Of a stretch of 64,000 bases of DNA, positions 1,298 through 39,971 are shown piece after piece. This DNA comes from Cyanobium sp. WAJ14-Wanaka (GTDB lineage Bacteria > Cyanobacteriota > Cyanobacteriia > PCC-6307 > Cyanobiaceae), in NCBI RefSeq assembly GCF_024345375.1, contig NZ_JAGQAZ010000001.1:558001-622000 (forward strand). Reading direction: 5' to 3'. The notes beneath the pieces are model-generated. The model saw only the letters and a program-made list of their open reading frames with translations. It had not been told where the DNA came from and made no database searches. Position 1 is the stretch's first letter. The number at the start of each line of letters is the position of its first letter. The position numbers were made by a program, and so were the translations under genes.

Positions 1298-3106
1298 CTA
1301 GCGCTTTGCCACCTTCTTGGCAGGAAGCTTTCTAAGCCGGATTGACTCAGGGGTTACCTCAAGCATTTCGTCGGGTCCGATGTACTCAAGGGCCCGCTCC
1401 AGGGTCATCTGGATCGGTGCCTGGAGGGTGTCGAGCACCTCAGCGCCGGCGGAGCGGATGTTTGTGACCTGCTTGGCCTTGCAGACGTTGAGCTCGAGAT
1501 CCGGTGGCCGGCTGTGTTCACCCACAATCATGCCCTTGTAGACCTTTGTGCCAGGGGTAATAAAGAATTGACCTCGATCTTCAGCGCCCTTAAGGGCATA
1601 GAAGGTGGCTGTGCCTTCCTCAAAGGCCACCAATACGCCATTGCGGCGGTTGTCCATGTCCCCCTGCATGCGCCGATAGTCAAGGAATGAGTGGCTCATG
1701 ATTCCCTCACCACGAGTAGCCCTGATGAAGTCTCCACGGAAGCCGATCAGGCCCCGTGATGGCACAACAAACTCCAGCTGGGTGCGGCCATCGTTTGTAT
1801 TTTCCATATTTTGCATTTCACCCTTGCGCGTTCCGAGGCGCTCAATACAGCCCCCTACAGCGGCCTCAGGCACGTCCATCACGAGGGTTTCAAATGGTTC
1901 GTGGGGGCTGTCGTTGATCGTGCGGAAGATCACCTGGGGCTGGCTCACCTGGAATTCGTAGCCCTCCCGGCGCATTGTTTCGATTAAGATGCCGAGGTGT
2001 AATTCACCCCGGCCGCTAACGGAGAACCGGTCAGGGGAATCGGTGTCTTCGACCCGAAGCGCCACGTTTGTTAGTAACTCGCGCTGGAGGCGATCCCTGA
2101 GCTGGCGGCTGGTTACGAACTTTCCTTCCTTACCTGCGAAGGGTGAATCGTTGACCACGAAGGTCATCTGCAGGGTTGGTTCATCAACCTTGATCAGGGG
2201 CAGGGCTTCGGGGTTGTCGGGGCAGGCAATGGTTTCGCCAATGTTAACTTCGTCAAATCCGGCCACTGCCACTAGGTCGCCGGCCCGGGCCTCCTCAATT
2301 TCTACCCTCTGGAGACCCTTAAAACCCAGCAACTTGCTAATCCGACCGCGTTTGATGCTGCCGTCATCACGAATAAGGGCAGCTGGTTGCCCGGCCTTAA
2401 TTGTGCCGTTGTGGATCCGGCCAATCATGATCCGCCCCAGAAAGTCGCTGTAATCGAGGGTGGTTACGTGCAGCTGCAGGGGCTTTGTGGGATCTCCGAC
2501 GGGGGGTGGTACATGGCGGAGGATCGCTTCAAATAGAGGCTTCATATTGTCGCTTTCTGTCTTCATGTCGGGCTTGGCATAGCCCGCCATGCCACTACCA
2601 AATAGGTAGGTGAAATCACACTGGTCATCATCGGCGCCAAGTTCTAGAAAAAGATCAAGAACCTTGTCCACGGCAATTTCAGGATCGACCCGAGCCCGAT
2701 CAATTTTGTTGACAAAGACAATTGGGCGTAGACCCTTTTCAAGTGCCTTCTTCAATACAAATCTGGTTTGGGGCATGGGCCCCTCATTGGCATCAACAAT
2801 CAGTAGGCAGCCATCGACCATCCCCAAAACCCGCTCAACCTCACCGCCAAAGTCGGCGTGGCCAGGCGTATCAACGATATTGATTCGGATCCCTTCGTAA
2901 TCGACGGCAGTATTTTTAGACAGAATTGTGATCCCCCTTTCCCGCTCAAGATCGTTTGAATCCATTACACAGGTGGGAATCGCTTCACCCTCGCGAAAAA
3001 TGCCAGATTGATTCAACAGGGCATCCACCAATGTGGTCTTGCCATGGTCAACGTGGGCAATAATCGCAATATTGCGAATAGGCGTGCCTGGATGTGCGCC
3101 GCTCAT
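1298..3106 (-). CDS. typA: TypA/BipA ribosome-associated GTPase
   Basis: 602-residue translational GTPase of the EF-G-like family that binds ribosomes and supports growth under stress and 50S assembly. The GTPase motifs are in order: G1 AHVDHGKTT (17-25), the ERERGIT switch region (about 54-60), DTPGH (79-83) and NKID (133-136). The C-terminal TypA-specific region is intact ([10 protein letters not shown], then a basic tail [10 protein letters not shown]). Length matches the family. It is transcribed separately from the downstream lpt genes. A 13-base palindrome sits in its 90-base upstream gap. Confidence 0.97.
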
Positions 3107-3196
3107 GCGTTGAAATTCCTAGAAGTTATTTAAAGCTCGTCAGCCCGTTTCAAGCCTTGAAGCCGAGGATGCACTGTATCTCTTCGTCCGATCACT

Positions 3197-5764
3197 TCAG
3201 CTGCGGCCCTTGAGGCTTCCCCTAGTAACCCCAAGTCGACTTTCCAGCCGTTCCCGCTGCCACAACTCCCGTCCGGAGATCTCTCCCTTCAGCGCTGCCC
3301 CGTACTGGCCAACCCTTTGACGGGCCTCTGCGGCGGATTCGTTGAGCATTTCAAGGCGGAAATGCCTCACCCCAGCCCTCTGCAGGGCCGGCAGGGCTTC
3401 GGCGGCTGTCTGGGCAGTGCCATTGAACAATGTGTTGCGACAACCCAGGTCTGCCCTTAGGGGGTGTTCGCTGCCACTGCGATCACGGAGCAGCACCTGG
3501 TGTGTCTCGCAGGGACGCCCGCAATCTGTGTGGTCGTGGCCGTCCGAGAGGAAGGCACAAAACAGGCAATGCTCCATGTGGAAGAGGGGCATGTGCTGGT
3601 GCACGGTCACCTCAACGCAACCTTTTGGTATCTCGCCCACCAGCTCAAGCAGTTGCTCAAGGCAGAGGTCGTAGCTGGCGGTGACCCGTTCCAGTTGCCA
3701 TTCCTGGAGATACCAGGCGGCAGTGATCGGATTGGCCACATTCAGCGAAAAATCGCCCACACAAGGGGCGATTGGGGTGAGCAATTCCAGTTGATCGGCA
3801 TTGCGCACCAGATAGCCATCGGCAGCGGCCTGGATCAGGGGTTCGATTGTCCAGCTTTCATTGGGCCTAGTTATGCGGGCACCGGCCAGCCACAACCCGC
3901 CTGGCCAGCAGCCCCTGCCCAGGGCAACAGCCTCCTTCAGCTCGTGGGGTTGCTCCAATTCGGCGATCACCCTTTGCAGTGGCAGATCCCGTAGGGCTTT
4001 TAGTTGCTCGAGGCTGCGCACCAGGACCACTAACCCGGCCTCCAGTTCCGGACTCGGCTCCGGCTGATCATCCGGACTGCTTGCATGGGCAATTGATACC
4101 CCCAATGATCTGATCAGCCCGGCAATCTCTTGCCTGTTATGGCTGAGGCTCTCAACCAGTTCTGGCGCCTGGGGTTCGCCAACATTTGCCAGTTGCTCAA
4201 CAATCTGCCTGCGCAGTCTGTTCAGCTCACTTATCGGCAGGAACAGGCCGGGTTCCAGATCCAGATCGAGGCTTTCCAAGAACCAGGGCGTGCCTCCCAA
4301 TCTCCCCAATTGGCTCTCCAACCGATTGCGGTCTAGGGCCTGCCCCATGGCTGGTTCCAGATCTGTGGAGGATCGCCATTCAGAGCATCCATGCCCTTCC
4401 CCCAGCAGGTAAACCACAAGCGGCATCCCTTTTTTGCCTACGACCTTCAGGTGGAGGGGCTGGGGCGACTCAGCGGTGGGGGTTTGGGCCAGGCGTTGCC
4501 AATGCTTCTCAAAGGCAGGGTCGCTGGTCAGCCAGCAGGGACTGCCCTTTTGCAGGCCCCTAGCGTCGATCCTGCCTGGGCCCATGCGCAGGGCCAGCAA
4601 CCGGGATGTACGCCGCTCAACCACCATCACTCGACCACCGATTTCCTTGGGCACCTCCAGGGCTGTTGGCGATGGACATTCCCAAACCAGGCCATCCCCG
4701 GGCTTGAGGTTTGCTGAGGTTTCAAGTAGCCACCAACCATCCTTTTCGATGCTCTTGAGCTGGCCGACTAGGGGCCCACGCTTTTTGCTCCAGCGGCCAT
4801 GGACCAATTGCCTGTGGTCCACCCCCCCTAGCCAACCCGTGCCCAGGCCCCGGGAAAAGCTGAGCTCCATGCTTTGCCTATGGATTGCCCGCTGCTCCTC
4901 TCGCATGCCCCCCAGCTCGATCCGATCAAGGCTTCGGCGGTAGAGATCCGTGACTGCTGCCACATAGGCGGCGTCCTTGAGTCTTCCCTCAATTTTTAGG
5001 CTGGCAATGCCGATACCTGCCAGCTCAGGTAGAAGTTCCCAGGCGGAAAGATCCTGGGGGGAAAGCAGATAGCGCTGGTCGCCGAGATCCTGCTCCTGGC
5101 CATCGACGATCAGGGCATAGGGAAGCCTGCAGGCCTGGGCACACTCCCCCCTGTTGGCACTGCGCTGGCCCAGGGCCTCGCTGGTGAGGCACTGGCCTGA
5201 ATAGGCCACACATAGTGCTCCGTGGACAAACACCTCCAGGGGCATCGCCAACTGGCGTTGCTTGAGTTGGTTCTGGATCCTGCCCAAATCCTTCAGGGCC
5301 AGCTCCCGGGCCAGCACCACCCGCACACAACCGAGGGCGGCGGCCTGGGCCACCCCTGCCGCACTGGTGATCGACATCTGGGTGGAACCGTGGATTGCCA
5401 GGCCTGGAGTCAGGGATCTGGCAAGCATCGCCAGGCCTATGTCCTGGACAATTAGGGCATCCACCTGCGCCGTCGATGCAGCCAGTAGCAACTGGGCCGC
5501 TTCCTCTAGCTCAGCTGTAAAGACCAGCACGTTGACCGTCAAGAAACCCTTCACGCCACGCCGGTGCAGCCAATCCATTACGGCTGGCAGTTCGGCTAGC
5601 TGGAAATTTGCGGCCCGCATCCGGGCGTTGAAGACCTCAACTCCGAAATAGACGGCGTCGGCCCCATTGGCCACGGCTGCCTTGAGTGCATCCCAATTGC
5701 CTGCAGGTGAGAGCAGTTCAGGGGTGAAGGCTGCGGAAGTAGGCGTTGGTAGCTCAGCCATCAT
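3197..5764 (-). CDS. U32 peptidase-family protein (RlhA/YhbU-like)
   Basis: 855-residue member of the collagenase-like U32 family, whose studied bacterial members are Fe-S enzymes acting in RNA hydroxylation or ubiquinone synthesis rather than proven proteases. The N-terminal barrel begins ELLSPAGNWDALKAAV. The family signature EVFVHGALCVAYSGQC is near residue 180, followed by RGECAQACR. These cysteines are the usual cluster ligands. A C-terminal extension carries another Cys-rich patch (CLFCAF, CGRPC) as in DUF3656-type members. Two ATGs (5764, 5761) overlap the stop of the VanY-like gene. The substrate is not deducible. Confidence 0.88.
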   Translation of the reverse strand: MMAELPTPTSAAFTPELLSPAGNWDALKAAVANGADAVYFGVEVFNARMRAANFQLAELPAVMDWLHRRGVKGFLTVNVLVFTAELEEAAQLLLAASTAQVDALIVQDIGLAMLARSLTPGLAIHGSTQMSITSAAGVAQAAALGCVRVVLARELALKDLGRIQNQLKQRQLAMPLEVFVHGALCVAYSGQCLTSEALGQRSANRGECAQACRLPYALIVDGQEQDLGDQRYLLSPQDLSAWELLPELAGIGIASLKIEGRLKDAAYVAAVTDLYRRSLDRIELGGMREEQRAIHRQSMELSFSRGLGTGWLGGVDHRQLVHGRWSKKRGPLVGQLKSIEKDGWWLLETSANLKPGDGLVWECPSPTALEVPKEIGGRVMVVERRTSRLLALRMGPGRIDARGLQKGSPCWLTSDPAFEKHWQRLAQTPTAESPQPLHLKVVGKKGMPLVVYLLGEGHGCSEWRSSTDLEPAMGQALDRNRLESQLGRLGGTPWFLESLDLDLEPGLFLPISELNRLRRQIVEQLANVGEPQAPELVESLSHNRQEIAGLIRSLGVSIAHASSPDDQPEPSPELEAGLVVLVRSLEQLKALRDLPLQRVIAELEQPHELKEAVALGRGCWPGGLWLAGARITRPNESWTIEPLIQAAADGYLVRNADQLELLTPIAPCVGDFSLNVANPITAAWYLQEWQLERVTASYDLCLEQLLELVGEIPKGCVEVTVHQHMPLFHMEHCLFCAFLSDGHDHTDCGRPCETHQVLLRDRSGSEHPLRADLGCRNTLFNGTAQTAAEALPALQRAGVRHFRLEMLNESAAEARQRVGQYGAALKGEISGRELWQRERLESRLGVTRGSLKGRS

Positions 5765-35976: not shown

Positions 35977-36018
35977 GTTGGAATGGGTGCACAGCAAACA
36001 GCTCCGCAAGACGACGCC

Positions 36019-37080
36019 ATGCCCGATCAGCTCACCAAGCTGGCTTACCAAACCATGCAGCAGGGCAAGAGCCTGCTGGGTTTGGCCCATAAGGAGGTGA
36101 GCACAAAGTTGATGGGGGTGCTTGCCCCCGAGGGCACTCCCAAAACGGTTCCGGCGCCCCCGGAGCTAATGGGCAGGCTCAAGGCTTCGATGGAAACGCT
36201 GCAGGAGCGCGATTGGCAGGAGGCTGAGCAGGGCCTCTATCCGACCTCCCTGCTCTTTGCTGCGCCGTGGCTGGATTGGGCCAGTCGCTACCCCCTGATC
36301 TGGCTGGACATGCCCAGCACCTGGAATCGCCGCAAGGAGCGAAATGTGCGTGACCTGCCAGATGATGTGGACCAGGGCGATTTTCCCGACTACTACCTAC
36401 AAAATTTCCATCACCAAACCGACGGCTACCTGAGCGACCACTCGGCAGCCCTCTACGACCTACAGGTCGAAATTCTTTTCAACGGCACCGCCGATCCGAT
36501 GCGGCGCCGGGTAATCGCCCCCCTGCTGCAGGGTCTCAAGGCCTTTGCTGATCGACCGGCCGGCCAGATTCGGGTCCTTGACGTGGCTACCGGTACCGGC
36601 CGCACCCTGAGGCAATTGAGGGGGGCCCTGCCCAAGGCCCAAATGGTCGGGCTGGATCTTTCAAGCGCCTATCTGAGGCAGGCCAACCGTTGGCTGAGCG
36701 AATTGCCCGGTGAACTACCCCAGCTTGTGCAGGGTAATGGCGAGGCCATGCCCTTCGCCGACGGCTCCTATCAGGCCATTACCTGCGTATTTCTGTTCCA
36801 CGAACTACCGGGCGAAGCCCGCCAAAACGTCCTCAACGACTGCTTCCGGCTGCTGGAGCCCGGGGGAGTGCTGGTATTGGCCGATTCAGTCCAGCTGGCC
36901 GATTCGCCCCAATTCAGCACGGTGATGGAAAACTTCAGGCGTGTCTTCCATGAGCCCTACTACCGCGACTACATCAGCGACCCGATTGACGATCGCCTTA
37001 AGCAGGCCGGATTCGAGGCTGTGGCGGGGGAATCCCACTTCATGACCCGCATCTGGACTGCCCGCAAACCGTCAAATTGA
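36019..37080 (+). CDS. Class I SAM-dependent methyltransferase
   Basis: 353-residue protein with an N-terminal helical region that mentions no known domain (MPDQLTKLAYQTMQQGKSLL, RYPLIWLDMPSTWNRRKERN). A Rossmann methyltransferase domain follows, from about residue 190: RVLDVATGTGRTLRQL (motif I), MVGLDLSSAYL, AMPFADGSYQAITCVF, LLEPGGVLVLADS. The substrate is unknown; the layout resembles lipid or quinone-type methyltransferases. ATG 36019 is preferred over 35983, which lies only 7 bases after the glnA terminator T-run. Confidence 0.85.
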   Translation: MPDQLTKLAYQTMQQGKSLLGLAHKEVSTKLMGVLAPEGTPKTVPAPPELMGRLKASMETLQERDWQEAEQGLYPTSLLFAAPWLDWASRYPLIWLDMPSTWNRRKERNVRDLPDDVDQGDFPDYYLQNFHHQTDGYLSDHSAALYDLQVEILFNGTADPMRRRVIAPLLQGLKAFADRPAGQIRVLDVATGTGRTLRQLRGALPKAQMVGLDLSSAYLRQANRWLSELPGELPQLVQGNGEAMPFADGSYQAITCVFLFHELPGEARQNVLNDCFRLLEPGGVLVLADSVQLADSPQFSTVMENFRRVFHEPYYRDYISDPIDDRLKQAGFEAVAGESHFMTRIWTARKPSN

Positions 37081-37084
37081 AGAC

Positions 37085-37360
37085 CTAGCGATTCAGCAAA
37101 AGGGCAACTAGGAAGCCGCCCGTGCCCCAGCGCAGCGAACGCCAGAACAAGGTCTCACCCTGGTTTGGGGGCACCAGTTCTAGCGGTAAGGGATCCAAAA
37201 GCCGCTGGGCCATGGCCAGTCTTTGGCGATGGCGGCGTTGGTTGGAGCCACTGCAGTTCTTTGCCAGGGCCGCCTGGGTCAGGAGCCCATCTAGGAGGTG
37301 GAAAAGCCGCACTGGTTGGCGCACAGACTGGCGCAGCGAATGCCTTACGGGTCTGACCAT
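37085..37360 (-). CDS. Unknown small protein with C-terminal hydrophobic segment
   Basis: Up to 91 residues. The N-terminal half is Arg/Gln-rich (HSLRQSVRQPVRLFHLLDGL), and the C-terminus is a short hydrophobic helix (RWGTGGFLVALLLNR) that may anchor it. An internal ATG (residue 50, MAQRLLDPLPLELVPPNQGE) could be the true start, giving about 42 residues. It is the last gene of a minus-strand run gun4 - rsbW - 97-aa unknown - this. No family is recognised. Confidence 0.5.
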   Translation of the reverse strand: MVRPVRHSLRQSVRQPVRLFHLLDGLLTQAALAKNCSGSNQRRHRQRLAMAQRLLDPLPLELVPPNQGETLFWRSLRWGTGGFLVALLLNR

Positions 37361-37410
37361 GACAACGCAATCGATCTACGGCCAGGATGGGGCCTGCCGA
37401 GTAGCTCCGT

Positions 37411-37704
37411 CTAGTGGCCCAAAGCCGACCCCATGCCTGCTGGCCCGAGGGCAGCCGCGAATTGGCCGAACAGTTGCAGCGCCAATTGGTAATCGGCGAG
37501 CGTGACTGGCACGCCCTCAAACACCAGCGCCCCCGCCGGGGGGCTGAGCAACTGGCTGCCGCCCTTGTACTGCTGCTGCATGGCGATGAACCTGGCCACA
37601 GCCGGCCCACCGAGGCCCGTGAGCGCGCCATTGCCTTGACCGAACATGCCCTGCAATGGCTTAGGGCGGAGGTTAGTGATCCCGGCTGCCCCAGCCACGG
37701 CCAT
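37411..37704 (-). CDS. Unknown 97-aa protein coupled to the RsbW-type kinase
   Basis: Gly/Ala/Gln-rich protein: the N-terminus resembles a weak signal or hydrophobic patch (MAVAGAAGITNL), followed by MFGQGNGALTGLGG and LVFEGVPVTLADYQLALQLF. The ATG overlaps the stop of the kinase gene by one base (TAATG), so its translation is likely coupled to it. There is no recognisable STAS, sigma or anti-sigma antagonist signature. Function is unknown. Confidence 0.65.
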   Translation of the reverse strand: MAVAGAAGITNLRPKPLQGMFGQGNGALTGLGGPAVARFIAMQQQYKGGSQLLSPPAGALVFEGVPVTLADYQLALQLFGQFAAALGPAGMGSALGH

Positions 37705-38111
37705 TAGCAGGGCCGCTCGCGCCTTACGGCCAACTGCACCCTGTTGCCCTGACGACTCCAGCGCACATCGTCAAAACAGTGGTGAATCAGAAAGAGGCCC
37801 CGGCCATGGGAGGCATCTAGCTGCCCACAAAGATCGGCCCTGCGGCAATGGGGGGGGATGCCTGGCCCCTCGTCCTGGACCTGCCAAACCAACCAATTGG
37901 TGGTTTCTGTGCGGCGAATCCGGACGGATTTTTCAGGATCATTGCCATTGCCATGGCGCACTGCATTGACGAGGGCCTCATGTAATCCCAAATGCAACTG
38001 GGCCTGCAGGTTGGGGCAAGGCACAGGGTTCAGGAGCAGCTCCACAAGGGTGCCCAGCTGAAGGGTGGATGGAGTTGTGAAATTCAACCAACGCAGCACC
38101 GTCTGCTCCAA
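37704..38111 (-). CDS. RsbW-type anti-sigma serine kinase (HATPase)
   Basis: 135-residue GHKL ATPase of the SpoIIAB/RsbW class. The N box is HEALVNAVRHGN, the G1 box DEGPGIP and the G2 box GRGLFLI. In partner-switching systems such kinases sequester a sigma factor or phosphorylate an anti-anti-sigma protein. Neither is encoded beside it, so its partner must be elsewhere or be the coupled 97-residue unknown. It is 20 bases downstream of the gun4-type gene on the same strand. Confidence 0.85.
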   Translation of the reverse strand: MEQTVLRWLNFTTPSTLQLGTLVELLLNPVPCPNLQAQLHLGLHEALVNAVRHGNGNDPEKSVRIRRTETTNWLVWQVQDEGPGIPPHCRRADLCGQLDASHGRGLFLIHHCFDDVRWSRQGNRVQLAVRRERPC

Positions 38112-38131
38112 GCTCTGGAGAGATCAAAACC

Positions 38132-38854
38132 CTAGGTCTTGATCCGCTGTTGCAAGGCGGGTTGCTGAAGCAGGGCATCCATGAGCCGAACGCCCCGCAA
38201 TTGGTTTACCAGGGGCATATGGCCCTCTGGGGCCCCAATTGACCAATCAAAACTGGCCGGATAGCGGGTCCAAATGCCCCCCTGCTTCCACCCAAGCTTG
38301 AGCCATAGGTCCTCCCAGCGGCCGTTACAGGCCCCCAGCAGACGCCCTTGAACGGAAAAACCAAATCGCCCCCTAGAGAAGCAAACCCAGAGACGATCAA
38401 GATTCTCCAGATCTGCCGCTCCCATGGCAGCCACCTCGCTGTAATAGACGTAGCCGCGCCTAACGGCTTCTCCACCAGCCAGCTCCCGCAGGATCGAGCT
38501 GGTGAGTCGGTCTGCCTCCTCCCACTGCTGCAAAACAAGGGCTTTTTGCAGGGGGGCGTAATCAATGCCCTGGGAGCTGGGGGTTGCCAGCCAGCCGGAG
38601 GGATATTGGCCAAAAAATTGATCTCGTTCGTACCCTGGCTCGGCCACCAGCCACTGGATCAATAGGCCGGCGGCCCAATCGTCGCCGGTGGCATCGAATT
38701 GATCGAGCTCGCCCGCCAGCAGTGGCTGCAGCTCAGGCAGCCTCTGCTCAAGCTGGGTAATCAGGGCACGCTTCTGGCGCTGGGAGGCTGCCCTAAAGGT
38801 GTCAAGCAGCGCTTCTGGGCTAGCTGTTGCCGTGACCTGGGGGCCAGAAAGCAT
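38132..38854 (-). CDS. gun4: GUN4-domain protein, Mg-chelatase regulator
   Basis: 240-residue protein. The N-terminal helical bundle (QRQKRALITQLEQRLPELQP) precedes a GUN4 porphyrin-binding domain starting GIDYAPLQKALVLQQWEEAD and containing LWVCFSRGRFGFSVQGRL and WKQGGIWTRYPASFDWS. GUN4 binds protoporphyrin IX and Mg-protoporphyrin and activates Mg-chelatase. Cyanobacteria often have several GUN4-domain proteins, and this one has the full N-terminal extension expected of the main gun4. It leads the minus-strand cluster with the RsbW-type kinase. Confidence 0.88.
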   Translation of the reverse strand: MLSGPQVTATASPEALLDTFRAASQRQKRALITQLEQRLPELQPLLAGELDQFDATGDDWAAGLLIQWLVAEPGYERDQFFGQYPSGWLATPSSQGIDYAPLQKALVLQQWEEADRLTSSILRELAGGEAVRRGYVYYSEVAAMGAADLENLDRLWVCFSRGRFGFSVQGRLLGACNGRWEDLWLKLGWKQGGIWTRYPASFDWSIGAPEGHMPLVNQLRGVRLMDALLQQPALQQRIKT

Positions 38855-38915
38855 GGGTACCGAAAGTGCTCGTGCCTCGTATGGCCCACTATGTCAGCAG
38901 AGATAGGGGCCCGTG

Positions 38916-39971
38916 ATGGAAGCCGACTGCCCGCGGTTGTCGGTCGAAAGTTTCCTCCAGGAACCTGGGCCGATCATTGATGTGCGCAGCCCAGGAGAAT
39001 TTGGCCAAGGCCACATTCCCGGGGCCCGCAACCTGGCGCTCTTCTCTGATGAGGAAAGGGCCCTGGTGGGCACCGCTTACAAGCAGCAGGGCCGAGCAGC
39101 GGCTGTGGGACTCGGGCTGGAGTTGGTGGGCCCGAAATTGGCCGAGCTCGGCAGAGCCCTTGCCGGCCATCAGTCTGACCCGGACCAAAGCCAGGAAGCC
39201 CTGCGGATCCACTGCTGGCGGGGTGGCATGCGATCAGCCAGCGTTGCCTGGCTGGCGGGGGTTGGGGACCAACCCTGCCTATTGCTTGAGGGGGGTTACA
39301 AGGCCTATCGACAATGGGTTTTGGCGAGCTTGGAGCAACCCAGGCGACTGCTTTTGCTCAGTGGCCGGACCGGCACGGGCAAAACCGATCTTCTATTGGC
39401 CCTGAGGGACCAGGGCCAGCAGGTGTTGGACCTCGAGGGACTGGCGAACCACCGCGGCAGCAGCTTTGGCGGGCTGGGTCAGGCGCCCCAGCCAAGCAAT
39501 GAGCACTTCGAAAACGAATTGGCCTCCGTGCTCGATGGCTGTCGAGATGACAGCTGGATCTGGGTTGAGGCGGAGAGCGCCCAGGTGGGGCGATGCCGGA
39601 TCCCAACCGCCATCTGGCGCCAAATGCAACAGGCCCCAACCATTGAAATCCAGCGGCCCATGGTCGAACGATTGGAGCGGCTAGTGGCCGTTTACGGCCC
39701 CCACGACCGGGGCGAACTTGCGGAGGCAACCGAGCGCATTTCCAGGCGCCTGGGCCCCCAGCGAACGGCCATCGCCCTTGGGGCCATCGCCACGGGCAAC
39801 CTGCAGGAAGCCTGTGGGCAGATGCTCGATTACTACGACCGCTGCTACGACCACGAACTGGCCCGCCGCCAGCAGCCGGCCCTGGCCAGCCTCGATCTGG
39901 CCGGTCTTGACGACCAAGAAGCTTCTAAACAACTACTGGCGCAGGCCCTTGTCGCAACCAGCCACCTTTAA
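38916..39971 (+). CDS. mnmH: tRNA 2-selenouridine synthase (MnmH/SelU) family
   Basis: 351-residue protein with an N-terminal rhodanese domain ([20 protein letters not shown], catalytic Cys in [10 protein letters not shown]) and a C-terminal P-loop domain ([17 protein letters not shown]), the MnmH architecture. MnmH replaces sulfur by selenium at the wobble 2-thiouridine through a geranylated intermediate. No selD is in the window. ATG 38916 is preceded in frame by GTG 38913. It is divergent from gun4. Confidence 0.92.

Follow-up and report, generated by a model that had tools for sequence, protein, structure and literature searches.

Which proteins does an RsbW-type serine kinase work with when none of its customary partners is encoded beside it? 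The question is raised by a 64-kb window (the whole stretch of DNA analysed here), positions 558001-622000 of contig C1 in the 2.14 Mb genome of a Cyanobium strain (G000), where such a kinase gene lies directly behind gun4. A sequence-only reading had taken the locus for a minus-strand run of four genes, namely gun4, the kinase, a 97-residue protein joined to it by a TAATG overlap and a 91-residue protein, and had proposed an orphan or noncanonical partner-switching module, possibly linked to tetrapyrrole supply, with the 97-residue protein as candidate partner. Here we argue that the kinase probably belongs to a partner switch whose genes are scattered over three unlinked loci. Joint loss of these genes might bring together two strands of research on high-light acclimation that have so far run apart, and is of relevance to a large family, the Cyanobiaceae, which includes small marine types by genome-size reading.

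Gene layout of the locus

That gun4 lies on the minus strand next to the kinase is confirmed (Table 1), and the two form a same-strand pair; the remainder of the supposed run breaks up, with a DUF6439 gene on the opposite strand separating the kinase from the 91-residue gene. The plus-strand open reading frame scores 58 bits against a DUF6439 (PF20035) gathering cut-off of 27, and the 97-residue frame is its antisense shadow. Across 14 relatives the DUF6439 frame has no stops and its substitutions fall by codon position as 281/297/690, whereas the minus frame has 10 stops and a distribution of 667/266/274, biased towards position 1; no match in those relatives has a methionine at the aligned start. 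A search of 16 genomes of the genus matched the 97-residue frame in 15, seven of these with internal stops, and the plus strand over the same stretch is open in 15/15 loci of the genus set. At 58 relative loci, representing 55 genomes (three represented twice), DUF6439 is open in every case, compared with 20 for the antisense frame. What looked like a TAATG join has arisen by chance where the convergent kinase and DUF6439 genes overlap at their ends, and the 97-residue frame, antisense and not conserved among relatives, was rejected as a partner of the kinase: a false gene is removed, and with it a plausible but wrong partner.

The 91-residue frame had rightly been called a gene, with 0 stops and substitutions of 399/219/722 by codon position in the same number of relatives; no Pfam or NCBIfam family scored over its cut-off for the protein. 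As a partner it was set aside, lying as it does beyond an opposite-strand gene and being matched by tblastn in only 13 of the 34 other kinase-bearing loci fetched. It is kept in the genus; the small genomes examined from g8 and g29 gave no match.

Table 1. Coordinates, strand and supporting evidence for the features discussed (window coordinates unless a contig is given)
Feature	Position	Strand	Evidence and remarks
Class I methyltransferase (flank)	35983..37080	plus	PF13649 E 1e-19
91-aa conserved protein	37085..37360	minus	Divergent from DUF6439; 0 stops, position-3 bias in 14 relatives
"97-aa unknown", antisense shadow of DUF6439, no gene	37411..37704	minus	Stops and codon-position pattern
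DUF6439 gene	37414..37707	plus	PF20035 E 1.3e-15; convergent with kinase, ends overlap by 4 bp
RsbW/SpoIIAB-type serine kinase (HATPase_c_2)	37704..38111	minus	PF13581 E 6.8e-21
gun4	38132..38854	minus	PF05419 E 1.1e-51; 20 bp upstream of kinase ORF
mnmH, tRNA 2-selenouridine synthase (flank)	38913..39971	plus	NCBIfam NF008750 E 2e-116, above cut-off
Second switch set: isoamylase, two STAS, kinase, HAMP-PP2C	contig C3, 22-38 kb (L024: 4209-7562, 18398-19912)		

Class of the kinase

The kinase gene is real and of the RsbW type, with N, G1 and G2 boxes intact, as had been noticed from the letters alone. The residues of the N box (E45, N49), G1 (D80, G82, G84) and G2 (G103-R104-G105) are invariant in 11 aligned sequences and show no variation across 18 cyanobacterial sequences either; the catalytic role among the conserved Glu and Asn is assigned by reference to SpoIIAB. 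The open reading frame begins with TTG at 38111, and an in-frame GTG at 38099, giving a protein of 131 aa, appears the likelier start because relatives begin, in the alignment, near the equivalent of residue 4-5. An AlphaFold model (mean pLDDT 82.3) was obtained from an input alignment of 22 sequences, which took in 21 of the 80 named loci described below. Its top Foldseek match is SpoIIAB (1l0o, E 6.4e-08), and VIA-align gives Z 16.0 and rmsd 2.3 over 127 aligned positions for that protein, Z 14.1 for SenB of 9qih and Z 14.0 for RsbW, against Z 8.9 or less for histidine kinases. The neighbours of the gene are gun4, DUF6439, the methyltransferase and mnmH; the linkage to STAS and sigma genes usual in the RsbW class is missing, and a survey of neighbouring reading frames with Pfam bore out the earlier observation that no sigma, STAS or PP2C gene adjoins the kinase. 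No phage copy of the kinase was matched in the phage sequence collection.

Conservation of the gun4-kinase pair

Within the Cyanobiaceae the surroundings of the kinase are constant. At all 48 loci checked (that of the window, 13 from its genus and 34 more, covering 30 of 31 sampled genera) gun4 is followed in tandem by the kinase, which converges with DUF6439. Between the gun4 stop and the first aligned position of the kinase there are about 20-150 bp at every one of them, and the tails of the kinase and DUF6439 genes overlap at 39, by up to 83 bp; at locus L098 DUF6439 is 1.1 kb away, and at L116 (G082) the kinase is truncated. Of the four-gene order that had been put forward for comparison, it is the gun4-kinase pair that is conserved, and not the 97-residue frame or the 91-residue gene, on the counts given above.

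Outside the family a different neighbour is met. The kinase profile matched 52 of 107 genomes in a sample of the phylum; among the matches listed, all 45 genomes of the same class outside the Cyanobiaceae were strong (72-105 bits), and the 20 listed among the 55 genomes without a match all lie outside the class. Of the named loci outside the family (the best 80 of 565), 74 have RlmD no more than 1.5 kb upstream of the kinase and 66 have a convergent DUF6439 at a distance of up to 1 kb, whilst gun4 occurs anywhere in the flanks (up to 6 kb) in three; tblastn found no gun4 at 27 kinase loci outside the Cyanobiaceae. RlmD was identified at locus L141 by TIGR00479 (401 bits) and elsewhere by similarity to the L141 gene, and the position that it holds upstream of the kinase is occupied by gun4 in the window. 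Kinase and DUF6439 together look like the older arrangement, with the gun4-kinase pair apparently specific to the Cyanobiaceae; as a tandem it is rare or absent outside. DUF6439 may itself be functionally linked to the kinase, the two being convergent neighbours outside the family also. The gun4 linkage is real and conserved within the Cyanobiaceae, but may amount to shared expression only, and the suggested tie between kinase and tetrapyrrole supply seems to consist in adjacency, within the family and not at the outside loci examined.

Candidate partners at distant loci

A Pfam search of G000 returned three STAS genes and two SpoIIE PP2C genes, of which one STAS and one PP2C lie off contig C3. 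The STAS gene is found beside carA and an RNase III-domain gene; its product is assigned to the TIGR00377 anti-anti-sigma family (56.5 bits, against a cut-off of 53.45), carries a D-S-S-G-L motif with both serines invariant in six sequences, and has TM1442 and SpoIIAA as its best PDB matches. The PP2C gene is found between ftsY and argH, the gene directly upstream being an SRP54-type ftsY (SRP54/SRP54_N); its product matches PF07228 (SpoIIE) at E 2.7e-54, and its best PDB match is Rv1364c, an RsbU/RsbW protein. No Pfam GAF match was obtained for three stretches of the PP2C N-terminus at E up to 5.

The remaining two STAS genes and the other PP2C belong, with a further kinase, to a second set on contig C3, where the PP2C lies about 11 kb further along from the cluster of isoamylase, STAS and kinase genes. 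When the genus was searched with the carA-linked STAS, a second STAS match appeared only in G000 (C3, E 1.4e-5), and the C3 set may be an acquired island.

Shared presence and loss across the family

Do the distant genes keep company with the kinase? Among 131 Cyanobiaceae genomes of at least 95% completeness and 1.6-4.0 Mb, the kinase was matched in 124 and is absent from seven, all of genus g5; the carA-linked STAS was matched in 123, being absent from the seven g5 genomes and G045; and the PP2C was matched in 123 at E<=1e-30, a family-wide threshold that weaker homologues in g5 could escape, being absent from the seven g5 genomes and G009. All three are present at near full length in 120 of the 131, the exceptions being the seven g5 genomes, G009, G082, G045 and G057. 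Many kinase profile rows of this survey contain stops; tblastn of the fetched loci places none inside the kinase.

Two lineages have lost, or are losing, the three genes together. Firstly, all three are missing outright from the seven sampled g5 genomes. At their gun4 loci (L078-L081, L083, L085, L086) DUF6439 comes immediately after gun4 and mnmH is retained, and the absence of the kinase is not an assembly gap, because these genes are present around the deletion. Secondly, G009, a genome of 1.8 Mb and 99% completeness in the window's own genus (contig C4; loci L027, L040), has about 284 bp between gun4 and DUF6439, and all that remains of the kinase there is a fragment (profile positions 2-60); its STAS gene is interrupted by three TAG stops, and no PP2C was matched even at E<=0.001. 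In two 10-kb stretches compared with G015, the kinase of G009 is 43% identical with gaps and the well-identified neighbouring genes are intact and 82-98% identical. That comparison took 23 mechanically chosen reading frames of at least 90 aa, two of them without a match. Besides the kinase and STAS, three have one stop: the DUF6439 frame, which was read from an upstream start; carA, with its stop at residue 10 of an over-long start; and a small frame that overlaps a longer one and is 78% identical. Another small frame is 77% identical. G009 gives the impression of a genome in which the switch is being lost whilst its neighbours stay intact. In the genus as a whole (16 genomes), the STAS gene is found in all 16 (with the three stops in G009), the kinase in 15 (in G009 as the fragment; G010, which is 85% complete, has none) and the PP2C in 14 (none in G009 or G010).

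Three genomes break the pattern, with one gene missing or broken in each, and this counts against a common switch. In G082 (L116, contig C1, about 2938-3230) the kinase is without about its first 55-58 residues, including the N box, and STAS and PP2C match well; G045, an assembly in 380 contigs, has no STAS match; and in G057 the PP2C is split over two frames. The truncation in G082 could mark the onset of loss, or reflect a faulty assembly. On balance, the coincidence of two losses is strong evidence, short of conclusive, that the three genes belong together.

A proposed scattered partner switch

We favour the reading, at a probability of about 0.7, that three genes at unlinked loci make up one partner switch, in which the window kinase plays the RsbW part. 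What carries this reading is observed: the protein families, the catalytic residues, the predicted fold, where the genes lie, and how they are present or lost together. Its parts would be the kinase after gun4, the RsbV-type STAS protein beside carA, and the RsbU-type PP2C (probably HltA) between ftsY and argH. The kinase would phosphorylate a serine in the D-S-S-G-L motif of the STAS protein, and the PP2C would remove that phosphate once its N-terminal part senses a signal, presumably of light or redox state. The dephosphorylated STAS protein would then capture the kinase and so release a further target of that kinase (probably a sigma factor), which would in turn change the expression of photosynthesis genes. 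Such a switch would explain at once why no partner gene adjoins the kinase, why the three genes are lost jointly, and why two of the presumed parts have high-light phenotypes. The kinase is probably not an orphan, because a STAS and a PP2C gene elsewhere share its pattern of presence and loss, and this comes close to the pairing with a distant STAS or sigma gene that the sequence-only reading had itself set against its proposal.

The principal competitor treats kinase, STAS and PP2C as independent regulators whose joint absence reflects genome reduction. There are only two triple losses, both lineages may be losing many genes, and G009 has 1.8 Mb where other genomes of the genus at least 90% complete have 2.1-3.2 Mb. 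Against it, the 11 sampled genomes of genus g8, at only 1.6-1.7 Mb, keep all three genes; in G009 the genes around the broken ones are intact, and g5 retains gun4, DUF6439 and mnmH around the kinase deletion. We regard this explanation as unlikely. Slightly more unlikely still is that gun4 and the kinase form a functional unit, with the kinase acting directly on Gun4 or magnesium chelatase, outside any sigma pathway. The seven g5 genomes and G009 have retained gun4 although their kinase is absent or incomplete, gun4 is at 0/27 loci outside the family by tblastn and 3 of the best 80 of 565 named loci, and the kinase has the fold of STAS-directed kinases, all of which weigh against the invariable same-strand tandem (48/48) that recommends the idea.

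A kinase working mainly with icfG-type STAS proteins, and not with the carA-linked one, we consider improbable. In the genus search a second STAS match appeared in G000 only (although the carA-linked query picks up distant STAS proteins poorly), and the kinase and the carA-linked STAS co-occur throughout the genus; on the other side, contig C3 does offer two further STAS proteins and a PP2C, which makes cross-talk possible, and PmgA of Synechocystis interacts with several STAS proteins according to a figure legend (PMC12329169). As for an orphan kinase switched by the 97-residue protein, for which the TAATG overlap at 37704 spoke, a reading frame that is antisense to DUF6439 and not conserved leaves it next to no chance.

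Possible links to high-light acclimation

The scattered switch that we prefer has two presumed parts with possible counterparts in the literature. Slr2031 was also considered as a lead for the phosphatase, and it was passed over in favour of HltA, which fits by its ftsY neighbour. In the passages available, Slr2031 is called an RsbU homologue (PMC10068330) and slr2031 serves only as an insertion site (PMC6058365). HltA is a GAF-PP2C phosphatase of Synechococcus elongatus UTEX 2973 connected with high-light tolerance and growth (PMC9430166), and the distant PP2C is probably HltA because ftsY adjoins both, flanking hltA in Synechococcus elongatus 2973 by the legend to Fig. 5 of that paper. Orthologues were reported there in 400 of 410 cyanobacterial genomes, the ten without one called, at a 50% identity cut, being mostly Prochlorococcus and Synechococcus. 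In the same paper the hltA neighbourhood offered no target candidate, and its authors speculate on a partner switch with an RsbV-like protein elsewhere (PMC9430166).

For the kinase, the RlmD neighbour outside the Cyanobiaceae hints at PmgA of Synechocystis, since RlmD lies upstream in 74/80 loci (best 80 of 565) and Sll1967 is one number away from PmgA. We take sll1967 and sll1968 to be neighbours from their locus numbering, not from sequence. No Synechocystis locus is among the best 80 of 565 named kinase loci. PmgA is Sll1968 (PMC11782454) and Sll1967 is an RlmD homologue (PMC12475003); no literature text naming both sll1967 and sll1968 was found among the passages available. PmgA has been reported to bring about the decrease of photosystem I in high light (PMC3443226), and it also phosphorylates Ssr1600, whose phosphatase is described as unsolved (PMC12329169). 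Titles, abstract openings and passages, a body of text with subscription papers mostly outside its scope, yielded no work joining a PmgA-type kinase with a STAS protein and HltA, or reporting the gun4 linkage.

A wider proposal may be put tentatively, at odds that we would set a little below even. PmgA and HltA, high-light regulators each known independently through mutant phenotypes, could be the opposing enzymes of one ancient switch, kinase and phosphatase, with the carA-linked STAS protein as their target; the kinase would have come to lie behind gun4 in Cyanobiaceae, such that the setting of the switch and chlorophyll synthesis are co-expressed; and the whole switch would have been discarded at least twice. 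With HltA having no known target and the Ssr1600 phosphatase unsolved in the sources as available (PMC9430166, PMC12329169), co-loss nominates candidates for both.

Comparison with known systems

The proposed switch resembles the RsbU/RsbV/RsbW and SpoIIAA/SpoIIAB systems of Bacillus in the fold of its kinase, the serine of its STAS protein and the class of its PP2C. It differs in that the genes are linked there and scattered here, in that it has no linked sigma gene, and in that its kinase is short (131-135 aa). Among cyanobacteria, Slr1861/Ssr1600/SigC is a described switch, with Slr1861 the kinase of the icfG cluster (PMC12329169). Slr1861 belongs to the same superfamily as the window kinase, and the set on contig C3 is of similar composition to the icfG cluster (PMC12329169). 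The window kinase, however, appears to stand apart from the C3 kinase and 16 other cyanobacterial paralogues with a tree support of 87/88, which is below the tool's 95/80 mark, in a tree of 35 rows where the C3 kinase sits on a very long branch and paralogue loci L246 and L247 (2 of 18) and most family members were left out.

The nearest likenesses are to PmgA, Ssr1600 and HltA, with which the genes here are compared by neighbours and descriptions, not by sequence. An RsbW-type kinase and an RsbV-type STAS protein occur in both settings (PMC12329169, PMC11863333), the STAS protein has paired serines here as in Ssr1600 (S59, S60), and the RlmD neighbour of the kinase family matches Sll1967, next in number to Sll1968. 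The kinase lies behind gun4 in Cyanobiaceae, which sets it apart from PmgA, and where the phosphatase is unsolved for PmgA and Ssr1600 (PMC12329169), an HltA-like PP2C is nominated here by co-loss. That PP2C resembles HltA in its RsbU-like SpoIIE type, its length of about 450-460 aa and its position beside ftsY, and differs from it in the GAF domain, present in HltA and without a Pfam match in the N-terminus here. The neighbourhood of hltA gave no target; in the Cyanobiaceae, co-loss supplies two candidate partners.
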